Assembly: GCA_016715325.1 (NCBI GenBank)
Contig: JADKAL010000014.1
Location: forward strand, 124,001-188,000
Length of the DNA: 64,000 nt
Source of the DNA: Methylococcaceae bacterium
GTDB lineage: Bacteria > Pseudomonadota > Gammaproteobacteria > Methylococcales > Methylomonadaceae
Direction: 5' to 3'
The first letter of the stretch is position 1. Every line of letters begins with the position of its first letter. A model generated the notes under the pieces. It did no database searches and was not told the DNA's origin. It saw only the letters and a program-made list of their open reading frames with translations. Shown here in pieces: positions 3 to 43,918 of this stretch. The translations under genes and the position numbers were made by a program.

Positions 3-1775
3 TTTAATATTGAAGTAGAAGGTCAATCGATCCCGCTATTACCGCTGATTATGCCGGTTTTGGAAAATTACGACCTCAATAACCTGCCCGAATTGCTCAA
101 TATTCCAGTCAGCGACTATCGTTTTTTAACGGTGCCGAGCGAGAAAATTAAGCCGTTTCTGGCGATATTGCTTGAATTATTCGGTGGCAGTACGTTCGAT
201 AAAAACGGATCGTTAAAAATATCTCGATTTAACGCCGCCAGTTTGGCCGATATGGAAACCCATAGTTACGGGCTGTTTTCCATCAAAGGCGGGGAGGAAA
301 TTAAAAAACTGGCGAAAAAACTCGCTGATTTTAAAGGGATAGACGATGTCCCGGTTCCTTATAATTTGAGAGCTACGTTACGCGAATACCAAAAGCTCGG
401 GCTTAATTGGCTGCAATTTTTACGCGAATATGCGTTTGCCGGAATATTGGCCGACGACATGGGGCTTGGAAAAACCGTCCAAACCTTAGCCCATTTATTG
501 CTGGAAAAGCAAAGCGGACGGATGAAAGAACCTAGCTTGATTATTGCGCCGACTAGTTTGCTCAGCAATTGGCGGCGCGAATCCGAGCGTTTCACGCCGG
601 ATTTGAATATGCTGATCCTTCAAGGGACCGAACGTAAACAATTGTTTTATAAAATGCGGGATTACGACGTCATCATGACGACTTATCCGTTATTACCCCG
701 CGATGAAGAAACATTGTTGGAGCATCAATATCATTATCTGATTCTCGATGAAGCGCAAATCATCAAAAATCCGCTCTCTAAAGGCGCGCAAATCGTCCGT
801 CAAATTAATTCCCGGCATCGGCTTTGCTTAACCGGGACTCCGATGGAAAACCACCTCGGAGAACTATGGGCGCAATTCGATTTTCTGATGCCCGGTTTTT
901 TGGGTGATAGCGCTACATTTAAACGTCTCTACCGGACGCCGATAGAAACCTTCGGGAATGCCGACCAAAAAGCGAGGTTATCGAAACGTATTGCACCATT
1001 TATGTTGCGACGCACCAAGCAGGAAGTTGCTGCGGAACTACCGCCGAAGACAGAAATTATCCGTTCGGTACCGCTCTATGAAAAACAAGCGGCCTTATAT
1101 GAAAGCATCAGGCTAACGATGGAAAAGAAAGTTCGGGATGCAATCGCAGAAAGGGGATTATCGCGTAGTCATATAACTATTCTGGATGCGCTCTTAAAAT
1201 TGCGCCAGACGTGTTGCGATCCTCGAACGTTGCCGCTCGACGCCGCGCAAAAAATCAACGAATCCGCCAAGCTCGATTTGCTGATGGAGTTATTACCTGA
1301 GTTGTTGGAAGAAGGCCGTAAAATTCTGGTCTTTTCGCAATTTACCCGGATGATTGCGTTGATTGAAGACAAACTCAATCACCAAGGCATTGCATACAGC
1401 AAACTGACCGGTCAAACGAAAGACCGCGACGCAGCAATCGGCATGTTCAAAAACGGCGAGGTTGATGTGTTTTTGATCAGCCTCAAAGCAGGCGGTATCG
1501 GCCTTAATTTGACGGAAGCCGATACCGTCATCATTTACGACCCCTGGTGGAATCCGGCAGTCGAAAATCAAGCAGCGGACCGCGCCCATCGCATCGGACA
1601 AGACAAGCCGGTGTTCGTCTACAAGCTTATTACGGAAAATACCGTCGAGGAAAAAATGCTTGCCATGCAAGACCGCAAACGCGCCTTAGCGGATAGCATT
1701 TACAACGAAGGGGCAAAAGAAGAAGCCTTGCAACTGACGGCGGACGACCTTACCGCCTTGTTTCAACCGTTGTGA
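3..1775 (+). CDS. SNF2-family DNA helicase/ATPase, 5' end outside window
   Basis: The frame is open to the left edge, so the true start lies outside the window; the ATG at 51 is internal. The visible part carries a complete Swi2/Snf2 motor. Walker A is DDMGLGKT about residue 136 counted from that ATG, the motif II box is LILDEAQIIKN, then LTGTPMENHLGELW. The C-terminal helicase lobe has GGIGLNLTEADTVI, DPWWNPAVENQAADRAHRIGQ minus one residue of flank, and the arginine finger region. Family members are DNA-dependent ATPases that remodel protein-DNA or RNA polymerase complexes. This one resembles the bacterial RapA-distant group with long N-terminal SWIM or helicase-associated regions, but that part is not visible. 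truD overlaps its stop codon, which suggests co-transcription. Confidence 0.93.
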   Translation, partial: FNIEVEGQSIPLLPLIMPVLENYDLNNLPELLNIPVSDYRFLTVPSEKIKPFLAILLELFGGSTFDKNGSLKISRFNAASLADMETHSYGLFSIKGGEEIKKLAKKLADFKGIDDVPVPYNLRATLREYQKLGLNWLQFLREYAFAGILADDMGLGKTVQTLAHLLLEKQSGRMKEPSLIIAPTSLLSNWRRESERFTPDLNMLILQGTERKQLFYKMRDYDVIMTTYPLLPRDEETLLEHQYHYLILDEAQIIKNPLSKGAQIVRQINSRHRLCLTGTPMENHLGELWAQFDFLMPGFLGDSATFKRLYRTPIETFGNADQKARLSKRIAPFMLRRTKQEVAAELPPKTEIIRSVPLYEKQAALYESIRLTMEKKVRDAIAERGLSRSHITILDALLKLRQTCCDPRTLPLDAAQKINESAKLDLLMELLPELLEEGRKILVFSQFTRMIALIEDKLNHQGIAYSKLTGQTKDRDAAIGMFKNGEVDVFLISLKAGGIGLNLTEADTVIIYDPWWNPAVENQAADRAHRIGQDKPVFVYKLITENTVEEKMLAMQDRKRALADSIYNEGAKEEALQLTADDLTALFQPL

Positions 1776-40044: not shown

Positions 40045-40722
40045 TCAATAATATACTGGACTTGCAGTCGGCCACAAACGCCATGTATTTGCAGAAGCAC
40101 TCTTGTTGGGCGTCATTTCGCTCATAGCGTTCATCCAACCGTCATGGATGAAACGTCTAATGAGCAAAATAACACTTTCTTCCAAATCATTGTCATTTAA
40201 TCCGGCAAGTTGTGTTGTTAGCATAAGGGAACAAATTCCATGTATACCACCAAGAAAAGCTAACGCAGTTTGTCTACATTGGTTGGATGTTAAATCCGGT
40301 GCAATAATTGAGAATTGCGCCTCAAACTTTCCATAAACATTATCCAGCTTTTTTTGATACCAAGAAGGGACTTCGCTTCCTTCCGGCAAACGATGTTCAA
40401 AAACCAAACTCCAACGGTTAAGATTTTGACTTGCAAACCTAATATACACTCCTGCCAGTTCTTCTAAGCGTTGCTCGGCATTCGGCGCTTGCACTTGATC
40501 CATTTTTTCCGCTATTTCATCCAACGACCTTGCTTTGACATGCAAAATCAAATCATCCATATTTGAAAAGACCATGTAAATACTGCCGACGGTATACCCG
40601 ATTTTTGCCGCAATATTACGTACTCTAAGTTGAGACAAACCGCCTTGGATGACTAATTCTTCAGCCGCGACCAAAACCATGTTTTTTATTTGCTCCAGAG
40701 TGTGATGCCCTCTTCTAGCCAT
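40045..40722 (-). CDS. TetR-family regulator with WHG domain
   Basis: A 225-residue regulator. The N-terminal helix-turn-helix is LVIQGGLSQLRVRNIAAKIG followed by TVGSIYMVFSNMDDLI. The C-terminal part resembles the WHG-type ligand domain (LAGVYIRFASQNLNRWSLVF). No target can be read from sequence. It lies 29 bases beyond the stop of the subtilase gene on the same strand, so it may be the last gene of the sigma/anti-sigma/protease operon; the terminator at 39988 follows it. Confidence 0.88.
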   Translation of the reverse strand: MARRGHHTLEQIKNMVLVAAEELVIQGGLSQLRVRNIAAKIGYTVGSIYMVFSNMDDLILHVKARSLDEIAEKMDQVQAPNAEQRLEELAGVYIRFASQNLNRWSLVFEHRLPEGSEVPSWYQKKLDNVYGKFEAQFSIIAPDLTSNQCRQTALAFLGGIHGICSLMLTTQLAGLNDNDLEESVILLIRRFIHDGWMNAMSEMTPNKSASANTWRLWPTASPVYY

Positions 40723-40751: not shown

Positions 40752-42065
40752 TTAATTTGATATAGGGTTAGCGAGTGCAAAACCTAATAGCTTGTTGGCA
40801 CAGGTTGTTGTTTCGCATAATGTATTTACCGCAGCATTTGCATTGACGCCGGCTAAAATGCCATCTTTTGATAATAACTTAGAGCCTTGTAAAACTGAGT
40901 GCGCTTCAGTTACTGTTAAATTCGGCTTCAACTCGAGGAGTAAAGCAACAACCCCTGATATTTCTGCCGCAGCAATAGAACTGCCGGATATAAAGTCATA
41001 AGTACCGTGCGGCAAAGTTGTGAGTATCTTGTCTCCCGGCGCGGAAATGTTGTTCTTCAGTGAATCTAGCTTATTTATCGAACGCACTGAAATCACGTCT
41101 TTTAATGAAGCAGGAAAATTCTCTGACGTTTTACCGGAACCGGTATCGGCGGCCACAACAATTATTCCTTTTGCGATTGCTTCTTTTAGCAATAATTCCA
41201 AAATAGGATCTTGAGGGCCGGTCAGGCTCATATTCAGAATATCTACGCCCGCCTTTATTGCCGTATTAACAGCAAATGCCAAGGTAAAGCTATTACAAAC
41301 CGCTTCAATGTCGTCTTTTTTGTCAGGCCAGCAAGCTTTAAGTGCAAACACCTTAGCATTCGGCGCTACACCGATTATGCCCTTTGCATTATCTTTTTTA
41401 GCGACCATAACGCCGGCAACAGCAGTACCGTGAATATCTGTCGTGAAACTGCCTGAAATTTCTTCAGCAAAATTTTGATTTTTTGATATTTGACCTGTTA
41501 AATCAGGATGATCGAAATCAACGCCGGTATCAATCAATCCAATCGTGATGTTTCGACCGGTCGCCTTACCGTGCGCTAAAGAAATTTCCATTTGCTGCAG
41601 GTTAGTTTGGAGCTTGAAATAGGGGTCCTTGTCATAATTTGCACGGGTTTTAAATACGTTCATGTTTTGAACTAACTCAACCCGGTCGTCTTTGGAAAGC
41701 TTTTCAATCGCACTGGAAACGGAATCGTTACCAGCAACCCGATACACAACGCAATGGACGCCTACGGCTGTCATCGGCCATTCAGACAGTTTTTCTAGTC
41801 CGTAATCTTCAGCTAAATCATTCGTAATCCGTTCGCTCCAAGTCGAACTCCCGTAACTACCGCGCTGCCTATAAGACGTCGGTGAGGCCGTACTCTTAAT
41901 ACTGTTGATCGTATTATCGGTAAATCCGACCAACAACAAACGATCGGCATTTTTTTGATCTAGAAGTGCATAAACATCGCTTTTGCTATTGTTATCGGTT
42001 TTACATTCCGCAGGAACCGACAACACCGCCATAGCAATAAACGCCGAAATTAAATAAGTTTTCAT
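40752..42065 (-). CDS. Exported S8 (subtilase) peptidase, divergent
   Basis: A 437-residue exported protein with a signal peptide (1-20). Residues 40-145 form a propeptide-like region. The catalytic triad is Asp179 in LIDTGVDFDHPDL, His212 in DIHGTAVAGVM and Ser363 in SGSSIAAAEISG. Two deviations are clear: the oxyanion-hole Asn of AAGN is replaced (VVAADTGSG, Asp307), and the usual GTSMAAPH is GSSIAAAE. Asp in this position also occurs in the eukaryotic convertase PC2, so activity is not excluded. It starts two bases after the anti-sigma stop and probably works with it. Confidence 0.85.
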   Translation of the reverse strand: MKTYLISAFIAMAVLSVPAECKTDNNSKSDVYALLDQKNADRLLLVGFTDNTINSIKSTASPTSYRQRGSYGSSTWSERITNDLAEDYGLEKLSEWPMTAVGVHCVVYRVAGNDSVSSAIEKLSKDDRVELVQNMNVFKTRANYDKDPYFKLQTNLQQMEISLAHGKATGRNITIGLIDTGVDFDHPDLTGQISKNQNFAEEISGSFTTDIHGTAVAGVMVAKKDNAKGIIGVAPNAKVFALKACWPDKKDDIEAVCNSFTLAFAVNTAIKAGVDILNMSLTGPQDPILELLLKEAIAKGIIVVAADTGSGKTSENFPASLKDVISVRSINKLDSLKNNISAPGDKILTTLPHGTYDFISGSSIAAAEISGVVALLLELKPNLTVTEAHSVLQGSKLLSKDGILAGVNANAAVNTLCETTTCANKLLGFALANPISN

Positions 42066-42067
42066 AA

Positions 42068-42820
42068 TTAATCCTCCGCTTGCGTTGAAGACAATAACGC
42101 ATAGGCAGGTTCTGCAAAAATAACATTTTTATCTTTTCTCAATAAATCAATGGCATCGAGAAGATGGTTTTCCGCAACATTCTTTTCCAACCTAACGGTG
42201 TAAACACCTTGAGCGGTAGGATTGTTATCGATAAACTGACCGTGCACTTTTTCAAGAATTTTATCTTTTTGTTGCTGATTAACGTTATCGGCAAATACCA
42301 CCCTAATTTCATTCGATTTCATGGCTTGCAATTGAGAATCGGATGACAATGTTCTGAAATTACCGATCAATTGTTTATCGCTTTCAATGTAATGCGGCAT
42401 TAAAACCGTTAAAGATAACAATAAAGCCGCCGCCATCGCTAAAGCAGGACGGCTTATGATGTTAGCGGACCAAAATTGTTTTTTATCGGCTCTAAGGGGC
42501 TTAACATTTCCGGAAATATTTTGAACGCTTGTACCTTGCTTAATGGGTGCTTGTAAATCCAGATCCTGCCCATTATGCAAACGCTTTTTAAGTCTTGAAA
42601 ATGACGCATGTTCCGCGGTGTCGATTGAGCCGTTGTGAGCGATAACTTGCGCCAACTTTTGAAGTTGCGTCTGTTCGCGTTTGCACATCAAGCAGACCTT
42701 CAAATGATCCTCCACTGCTTTGAGTTCCGTTCCTTGTAATGTCTTGTTGACATACCAAGGCAGCAATTGAGAAAGTTCTTGATGATCTGAATAAGATGCT
42801 TTGTTGATTTGTTTCATCAT
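42068..42820 (-). CDS. Anti-sigma factor with protease-prodomain-like periplasmic part
   Basis: A 250-residue membrane protein. The N-terminal anti-sigma zinc finger (zf-HC2) has ligands His39, Cys43 and Cys46 (EDHLKVCLMCKRE). A single membrane helix covers about 123-142. The periplasmic part (171-241) has EIRVVFADNVNQQQKDKILE and then VYTVRLEKNVAENHLLDAI and NVIFAEPAY, a pattern seen in I9/fervidolysin-like propeptides of subtilases. It lies between the ECF sigma factor and the subtilase, with 14 and 2 base gaps. It likely binds the sigma factor at the inner face and senses the protease outside; that coupling is inference. Confidence 0.82.
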   Translation of the reverse strand: MMKQINKASYSDHQELSQLLPWYVNKTLQGTELKAVEDHLKVCLMCKREQTQLQKLAQVIAHNGSIDTAEHASFSRLKKRLHNGQDLDLQAPIKQGTSVQNISGNVKPLRADKKQFWSANIISRPALAMAAALLLSLTVLMPHYIESDKQLIGNFRTLSSDSQLQAMKSNEIRVVFADNVNQQQKDKILEKVHGQFIDNNPTAQGVYTVRLEKNVAENHLLDAIDLLRKDKNVIFAEPAYALLSSTQAED

Positions 42821-42834
42821 AAACTCCTGAACTT

Positions 42835-43464
42835 TCAGTTTGAAGGCATCGAACTGTCGTTCGTTGGTGTTAGTATCGCAGCCAGATTCTTTCTGGCGTG
42901 ATGCATTCGGGTTTTAACGGTATTTTCCGGGCATTCCATAATGGTCGCTATTTCGCTGTAATGAAGCCCTTCGAAATAAGTCAACTCAATAACCGCTCTA
43001 TGTTCGGCTGATAATTGACTTAATGCGAATTCCAGCCATTCATCCATTTCAAGTTGGTTCATTCCGGCATCTTGCTTACCCAGCCATGAACTGTCCTCGT
43101 CGATTTCATCAAGCGATTCCAATTCAGAGCGGTCATCGTCACGCAAAGCATGGCGAGCTTTATTAAATGCAATTCCAAAAATCCAAGTTGAAGGTTTACA
43201 TTGTTTATCGTAAGTCGCTGCTTTTTCCCAAACGACATACATCACATCATTAATGATTTCGTCTATAAAATCATCGCGTCGGGTAACCCTGGCAACGAAC
43301 CGGAACAAACGCGTATAGTAATTGTGATATAGCTGTTCGAGCGCGTTTTCGTCGGCATTACAGAGTCTCGCAATGAGATCGGCGTCTTGCATTTGCTGAC
43401 CATATTGTTGTTTACTCAATGGCGTACCTGCAAAGTATTGTGTTTCTAAGGCATGCGCTTTCAT
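42835..43464 (-). CDS. ECF-type sigma-70 factor
   Basis: Alternative sigma factor of the extracytoplasmic function group, 209 residues. Region 2 covers about 45-110 (LEQLYHNYYTRLFRFVARV, DEIINDVMYVVWEKA, STWIFGIAFNKA), and region 4 about 145-200 (LSAEHRAVIELTYFEGLHYS, ENTVKTRMHHARKNL). It heads the operon with the anti-sigma factor and the subtilase and is expected to autoregulate. N-terminal residues 1-25 are less conserved, so the start may lie downstream at Met25 (MQDADLIARL). Confidence 0.92.
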   Translation of the reverse strand: MKAHALETQYFAGTPLSKQQYGQQMQDADLIARLCNADENALEQLYHNYYTRLFRFVARVTRRDDFIDEIINDVMYVVWEKAATYDKQCKPSTWIFGIAFNKARHALRDDDRSELESLDEIDEDSSWLGKQDAGMNQLEMDEWLEFALSQLSAEHRAVIELTYFEGLHYSEIATIMECPENTVKTRMHHARKNLAAILTPTNDSSMPSN

Positions 43465-43918
43465 TAAACATAAACCAATTTAATTTACTTTGTATATTAA
43501 TTCCAAAAACGCTGCAAAACGTTCATTCAATAATTAAATAAATCTTAATTTTTTAACAATTTTTTTTGAAAAAAAATATATCATTTAAAAACAATTATAT
43601 GAAAAGTTAAGGTCGAATAAATAAATCACCCTGAAACTGATATTTTCTCCCCCAATAAGCTCGGTACTACAGACATAAAGACGGATGCAAAAGCAATCCA
43701 AAAAATGATTCTTTCAAAATAGATATTTTTTATATCCACTTAGTACCCTGTTTTACTCTTTTTCCTGTTGTTGCTCTAAGCATCTGCATCTAACAAAATT
43801 AGCATCACGAATTATGTTGCACAGCGTCTGTAAAACCATTCGTTTTCAACGGCTGACTTTTTCAGTCTTGTGAAAATAAGCAAATAGACATTTATCGACA
43901 ACACCTGGATTTTTAGCA
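43465..43918. other. AT-rich divergent intergenic region
   Basis: The 454 bases between the sigma-factor gene and the 43919 gene contain A and T runs around 43550-43610 and no clear gene. It must hold the promoters of both sides; I could not identify a -35/-10 pair for the ECF factor. Confidence 0.5.

Follow-up and report, generated by a model that had tools for sequence, protein, structure and literature searches.

A sigma factor, a membrane anti-sigma factor and a subtilase in one block

Within the 64,000-nucleotide stretch of Methylococcaceae contig JADKAL010000014.1 analysed here (the window), three genes form one minus-strand block at 40752-43464, with gaps of 14 bases between the sigma factor and anti-sigma factor genes and of only 2 bases between the anti-sigma factor and subtilase genes (Table 1). 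A first-pass annotation made from the sequence alone had described them as coding for an extracytoplasmic function (ECF) sigma factor, an exported subtilase and, between them, a zf-HC2 anti-sigma factor with a single membrane helix, and the coordinates, Pfam matches and hydropathy all agree with this description. Judging from gene order and domain content, the anti-sigma factor would bind and inhibit the sigma factor. We concentrate on its periplasmic part, which resembles the propeptide of a subtilase.

Table 1. Positions of the module's features in the window, and of small secreted proteins at related loci (given as locus:positions).
Feature	Position	Strand	Basis
Promoter element TGAACGTTT-N12-GGAATTA, 33 bases 5' of sigma ATG	43498..43525	-	motif comparison
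ECF sigma factor, 209 residues, first gene of module	42835..43464	-	Pfam Sigma70_r4_2 (E 3.7e-16), Sigma70_r2 (E 1.6e-09)
Membrane anti-sigma factor, 250 residues	42068..42820	-	Pfam, family matches, AF2
Zinc-type anti-sigma segment, residues 13-49, H39-x3-C43-x2-C46	42674..42784	-	
Single membrane helix, residues ~121-145	42386..42460	-	hydropathy
Juxtamembrane motif FRTLS in linker, residues 155-159	42344..42358	-	family conservation
I9/fervidolysin-type propeptide-like domain, residues 168-238	42107..42319	-	PF22148, AF2, Foldseek/VIA, hhalign
C-terminal tail AYALLSS, residues 239-245	42086..42106	-	entropy
Exported subtilase, 437 residues	40752..42065	-	Peptidase_S8 (E 2.2e-33); signal peptide by eye
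Cis propeptide of subtilase, residues ~40-140	41646..41948	-	
Catalytic domain, Asp179, His212, Ser363	40866..41633	-	alignment of 85 subtilases
TetR-type regulator, frequent next gene after subtilase	40045..40722	-	Pfam
Small secreted protein	L025:1003-1395	-	
Small secreted protein	L026:946-1428	-	
Small secreted protein	L027:1605-1994	+	
Small secreted proteins	L164, L173, L181		
Small secreted proteins	L001:711-1157 and 1336-1773		
Small secreted proteins	L004:5908-6818		
Small secreted proteins	L014:6210-7134		

The zinc motif is kept almost without exception (H39 and C43 in 91/91, C46 in 90/91) in a wider-family set made up of the window and 90 of the 93 order-level loci described below, from which L044 (frameshifted), L107 (chimeric) and L114 (fragment) were dropped. 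The window protein matches Pfam zf-HC2 under the cut-off (E 0.011); 32 of 33 family members match it at E ≤ 1, the best at 2.5e-06. Hydropathy peaks at 1.84 over residues 127-145, with no second 19-residue stretch above 1.4. The linker that follows is predicted to be disordered, the predicted local distance difference test score (pLDDT) from AlphaFold2 (AF2) being below 50 at residues 141-163. Within it lies a juxtamembrane motif, [FY].T[LV][SAT], present in 88 of the 91 anti-sigma factors, and its T157 and L158 are invariant in all 113 anti-sigma sequences. We take the motif to be the likely site of cleavage or switching.

The periplasmic part of the anti-sigma factor is a propeptide-like domain

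Residues 169-238 match the Fervidolysin_NPro-like family PF22148 below its cut-off (E 0.0011, 19.7 bits as against 21), 31 of 33 family members match it at E ≤ 1 (best 1.2e-06), and a precomputed table annotates PF22148 for six relatives among the matches listed. AF2 predicts the strand and helix order of a propeptide, with block means of pLDDT of 84-96 over residues 171-240, and the Foldseek/VIA comparison places the predicted fold with the propeptide type, itself of the common ferredoxin-like kind. When deep profiles were aligned with hhalign, the domain matched the cis propeptide of the neighbouring subtilase over 80 columns at E 8.1e-05, as against E 0.093 for the catalytic domain and E 0.26 for a reversed control; an earlier alignment with shallow profiles had matched just 25 columns. 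Searched against PDB sequences, the anti-sigma profile gave no match at E ≤ 1. The PF22148 matches, the predicted fold and the profile alignment rule out a chance likeness, and fold and profile match, together with the conserved gene order, confirm as far as sequence and model reach that the resemblance is more than that. The likeness to a subtilase propeptide at about residues 171-241, first noticed from the sequence alone, is thus borne out by a predicted I9-like fold; its bounds are better set at 168-238, followed by a conserved tail.

This tail directly follows the last strand. Across 104 subfamily sequences its mean entropy is 0.40, the lowest among 11 segments, and that of residues 246-250 behind it is 2.48. 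It is gapped in seven of nine members of a paralogous family. Counting from the last strand in a BPN' register that we assume (VIA endpoints 169..247 to 7..77), residue 245 would fall at P1, and by a similar count Glu237 presumably occupies the helix-capping position of BPN' Glu69. Glu237 is kept in 81 of the 91 wider-family proteins. According to the excerpted text of PMC6993865, Glu69 of BPN' is one of two helix-capping residues of the propeptide. In the window's subfamily the tail would correspond to the part of a propeptide that enters the active-site groove. Plugging of the active site by the tail is ruled out as a universal mechanism, because 42 of the 91 anti-sigma factors carry seven residues or fewer after the AEP glutamate.

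The partner subtilase keeps its triad and its own propeptide

In an alignment of the window subtilase with 84 relatives, all longer than 330 residues, the catalytic Asp and His are present in 85/85 and the Ser in 83/85, the other two copies being truncated at contig ends and having a gap there. The window protein is placed in family S8 on the strength of its Pfam match, fold and triad. The oxyanion-hole Asn has a role in subtilase catalysis. No canonical AAGN oxyanion loop occurs in the printed segments of the 85 sequences, with AATN in one relative and AAN in another; AAGN is present in partner subtilases of other clades, e.g. L126, L128, L136 and L145. Because the canonical loop is missing, the enzyme, while probably active on the evidence of its conserved residues, is perhaps slow. 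With its triad so strictly conserved the protein finds no support as a pseudoprotease, although its activity could be weak with the AAGN loop gone. A further subtilase alignment displays three invariant Cys (first-row positions 201, 341 and 353), of which the cis propeptide holds one and the catalytic domain two, and redox or disulfide control through them is possible.

The idea that the anti-sigma domain is a displaced propeptide of a subtilase lacking its own was ruled out by the cis propeptide present in the aligned sequences and in a fused model. Because the subtilase retains it, the domain on the anti-sigma factor is a second, additional copy.

The gene order is conserved within and beyond Methylococcales

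Fourteen named loci, which the records assign to genera or families of Methylococcales type or, in one case, to a gammaproteobacterium, have the sigma gene upstream in 13 cases and the subtilase downstream in 13; the exceptions are L012, which starts at the anti-sigma gene, and L003, where the contig end cuts the subtilase. A TetR-type gene adjoins the subtilase in six of them (L001, L002, L004, L006, L010 and L014).

An order-level search matched 86 of 301 genomes. We examined 93 loci, most of the stronger among 119 rows, which include several of the named loci again; the remaining rows are for the most part partial matches, headed by G219 (E 9e-37, positions 101-218). The subtilase lies directly downstream in 88 of the 93 and, by a strict rule, the sigma gene upstream in 84. 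By eye a sigma gene is also seen in L095 and L103, where an over-long start overlaps it. The loci without a subtilase are L018 (the same place as L007), L107, L108, L111 and L114, of which L108 holds frameshifted subtilase remains.

A class sample gave matches in 50 of 369 genomes. Among 19 loci (20 were fetched and the query genome excluded) an S8 protease follows in 14, some of these matches being weak (26-79 bits); L130, L131 and L133 are cut by contig ends, and L122 and L129 have sigma and anti-sigma genes without a subtilase. The phylum sample, which must be Pseudomonadota because genome G001 carries the Methyloglobulus morosus locus L004, matched in 61 of 398 genomes, and its 17 new loci have S8 downstream in 15, six of them near-identical, and upstream of sigma in L142 and L144. 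The three samples overlap, and many weaker rows match the zinc part alone. As a control we took 15 zf-HC2 hits in eight genomes: the two outside this family (L184, L196) had no subtilase, by eye, in their lists of open reading frames (ORFs). The three genes are therefore largely kept together in the order and in the class and phylum samples. Neither outcome that the first-pass annotation had named as refuting, a periplasmic domain without an I9-like fold or homologues scattered in other genomes, was observed.

Several side observations accompany these searches. A second, distant match was found in all five genomes first searched. L020-L022 carry a paralogous sigma/anti-sigma/subtilase module; its anti-sigma factor has no AYALLSS tail, and its subtilases appear lipoprotein-like by eye. 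In L122 and L129 the next same-strand gene looks, again by eye, like a Gfo/Idh-type oxidoreductase. A 589-residue ORF at L107:2168-3937(-) joins a sigma-54-activator-like part, a membrane helix, the sequence FYTLSS and the propeptide domain, and is either a genuine novel fusion or a chimera created in assembly.

A conserved promoter element links the module to small secreted proteins

The element TGAACCTTT-N12-GGAATTA, which by resemblance we take to be of ECF type, stands upstream of the sigma gene in 13/13 sequences (the window and 12 loci, L010 and L012 left out), with zero to three mismatches and constant spacing. In 3900 mononucleotide shuffles three mismatches or fewer occurred 13 times and one or fewer never; 0.11 occurrences would be expected by chance in the window.

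A degenerate form of the motif gave five sites in three of five genomes and none for the reversed control. Two lie at sigma operons and three before related small secreted proteins of ~130-160 residues. In 18 further genomes there were 31 sites, spread over 16 genomes, against three for the control, and the 30 fetched stood before six sigma genes, three small secreted proteins, seven IS630-like ORFs and 14 mixed sequences or no clear gene. As the search motif came from sigma operons in the first place, the hits at such operons are partly circular; those at secreted proteins are not. The small secreted family carries the motif FDFDSNxxDIxxGATAI, and in L001, L002, L004, L010 and L014 such proteins also lie 0.2-0.6 kb before the sigma gene. 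Three of its members had no Pfam match at E ≤ 1, all of the 73 relatives found by search are named no further than 'hypothetical protein', and no member was found among the window's ORFs of at least 40 residues. These proteins are possibly substrates, ligands or effectors.

Two other kinds of neighbour were seen. Gcw_chp (PF09694) outer-membrane proteins lie just 5' of a sigma gene at L011:6497-7228(+) and of a small secreted protein at L027:596-1405(+), and similar proteins seemingly precede sigma in some further loci. Seven promoter-like sites in four genomes lie 129-135 bases 5' of ORFs that, as we assume, resemble the start of an IS630-type transposase; they are at 1501 (+) in L155, L156, L158, L170, L172 and L179 and near the end (-) in L159. 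Either an insertion sequence carries an ECF-like promoter or these are copies of one chance match.

The arrangement in genome G003 is of particular interest. Its sigma/anti-sigma pair (L007/L018) has no adjoining subtilase, and an intact subtilase lies on a separate contig, where the same promoter element and a small secreted protein precede it. Between the secreted protein and the subtilase, at L028:4082-4162, is the remnant NVIFAGQAYALLSS, the 3' end of an anti-sigma gene from a deleted sigma/anti-sigma pair. Therefore, the protease stays behind the same kind of promoter even when unlinked.

Discussion

An anti-sigma factor that carries a domain like the propeptide of the neighbouring protease suggests that the cell senses this protease. 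The reading we favour, and judge evenly poised between right and wrong, is a switch made of sigma and anti-sigma factor: a second subtilase propeptide copy, tethered to the membrane, would act as its periplasmic sensor, with the protease encoded directly downstream as partner. The subtilase would be exported with its own cis propeptide and then mature. Free mature enzyme would be captured by the anti-sigma domain in the fashion of a propeptide, with the AYALLSS tail, in the window's subfamily, lying in the active-site groove. Capture might expose the juxtamembrane [FY]xTLS linker, or the subtilase might cut it directly, whereupon a site-2 protease would cut the membrane helix. The freed sigma factor would then transcribe its own operon, giving positive feedback, together with genes for the small secreted proteins. 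Of this, our computations show the domain with its predicted fold and its profile kinship to the cis propeptide, as well as the conserved gene order and promoter and the linked promoter sites; binding, cleavage, the site-2 step, the order of the steps and the sign of the signal are what we infer.

Two results do not favour this switch. In the fused AF2 model it is the cis propeptide, not the anti-sigma domain, that takes the canonical docked position, although this model was judged without coordinates or predicted aligned error, thus without contact measurement, and a single-chain alignment may bias the prediction towards the cis copy. Mirror-tree distances computed for 76 loci and the window gave no specific signal and no added support. 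Because the cis propeptide is predicted at the canonical site, the anti-sigma domain would reach it only once the cis copy is gone, or would dock elsewhere. The original proposal that a trans domain could bind the protease is partly supported: it stands as regards the I9-like fold and the strongly conserved order of the three genes, but needs amending in that the subtilase has its own propeptide and the one on the anti-sigma factor is additional.

Could the domain instead restrain the enzyme? As a tethered inhibitor in a negative feedback it would hold and inhibit the protease at the inner membrane, and sigma would be freed when substrate or misfolded envelope proteins titrate the protease away, so that more protease and anti-sigma factor are made. 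Stand-alone propeptide-like proteins inhibit potently (PMC6993865, in excerpt), the tail is conserved as in a product-type inhibitor, and the protease sits in the operon behind a conserved promoter. However, many relatives are without the tail, and the widespread juxtamembrane motif suggests processing, not mere holding. We regard such an inhibitor as unlikely, though a serious contender.

A second serious contender, to which we give a similarly small chance, is that the I9-like fold has been co-opted for another ligand, be it one of the small secreted proteins, a lipid or a protein of the outer membrane, while the subtilase serves as site-1 protease or regulon effector and is not bound through the propeptide site. 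The promoter link to the small secreted proteins, the cis propeptide already filling the canonical position in the fused model, the I9-type anti-sigma factors without an adjoining subtilase and the commonness of the ferredoxin-like fold all speak for it, but it explains neither the constant subtilase neighbour nor why the domain's profile is akin to that of the partner's cis propeptide. Quite improbable, in our view, is a trans folding helper that would aid the subtilase during export, sigma release reporting unfinished folding: propeptides of subtilases do aid folding of the catalytic domain (PMC6993865, in excerpt), but a full cis propeptide is present in the aligned subtilases and a second helper is not obviously needed. 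That the genes simply share an operon, the protease being no more than a member of the regulon and the likeness without function, is very improbable, for although ferredoxin-like folds are common and binding between anti-sigma factor and subtilase is itself a proposal, the PF22148 matches, the match between cis and trans profiles and the breadth of co-occurrence speak against it.

The favoured switch has precedents for each of its halves. RsiV, which controls sigma-V in Bacillus subtilis, binds the active-site pocket of lysozyme, inhibits the enzyme and is then destroyed by proteolysis (PMC5014341, in excerpt). It gives a precedent by analogy for a membrane anti-sigma factor that senses an enzyme through occupancy of its active site; the likeness we claim is one of proposed working. 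Unlike RsiV, whose lysozyme is foreign, the module would sense its own same-operon subtilase through a propeptide-like domain. Propeptide folds acting in trans are known from POIA1, the yeast peptidase B inhibitor, Arabidopsis SPI-1, TgMIC5 and Plasmodium SUB1-ProM, the last encoded next to subtilase genes; unlike the anti-sigma domain these are separate small proteins, and the excerpted account mentions no membrane anchor or sigma-binding part (PMC6993865). The RpoE-RseA-DegS-RseP system likewise has an ECF sigma factor, a membrane anti-sigma factor and stepwise proteolysis that frees sigma, whereas DegS, which acts there as site-1 protease, belongs to the HtrA-type PDZ proteases and not to the subtilases (PMC8103513, in excerpt). 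The ECF54 group also has subtilase genes in a conserved sigma factor neighbourhood (PMC8999054, in excerpt).

No paper describing an anti-sigma factor with a subtilase propeptide domain came up in our searches of the open-licence PMC literature. To our knowledge RseA has no propeptide-type sensor. The first-pass annotation's remark that it knew of no such system holds for the combination, not for its halves, since trans propeptides (PMC6993865) and the enzyme-sensing RsiV (PMC5014341) are each known, at least from the portions of these sources consulted. What appears to be new is the combination of a trans propeptide-like domain with an enzyme-sensing anti-sigma factor, to which RsiV and lysozyme come closest. 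Beyond that annotation, our analysis adds the second propeptide copy, the linker motif, the conserved promoter and the unlinked G003 subtilase behind the same promoter.

More broadly, and a little short of an even chance, we propose an undescribed kind of envelope signalling spread across Pseudomonadota: an anti-sigma factor would read the amount or state of a subtilase that the cell itself makes and secretes, by means of a tethered trans copy of this enzyme's propeptide, with a conserved juxtamembrane cleavage motif and a positively autoregulated regulon that in methanotrophs would include the small secreted proteins. If this is true, an enzyme would be sensed through its own safety catch, a spare silencing domain measuring the free protease. 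Many "hypothetical" anti-sigma ectodomains and adjoining S8 proteases in Pseudomonadota would gain a testable function, and methanotrophs a defined promoter and a candidate regulon. The module would also show how a propeptide could become a receptor.

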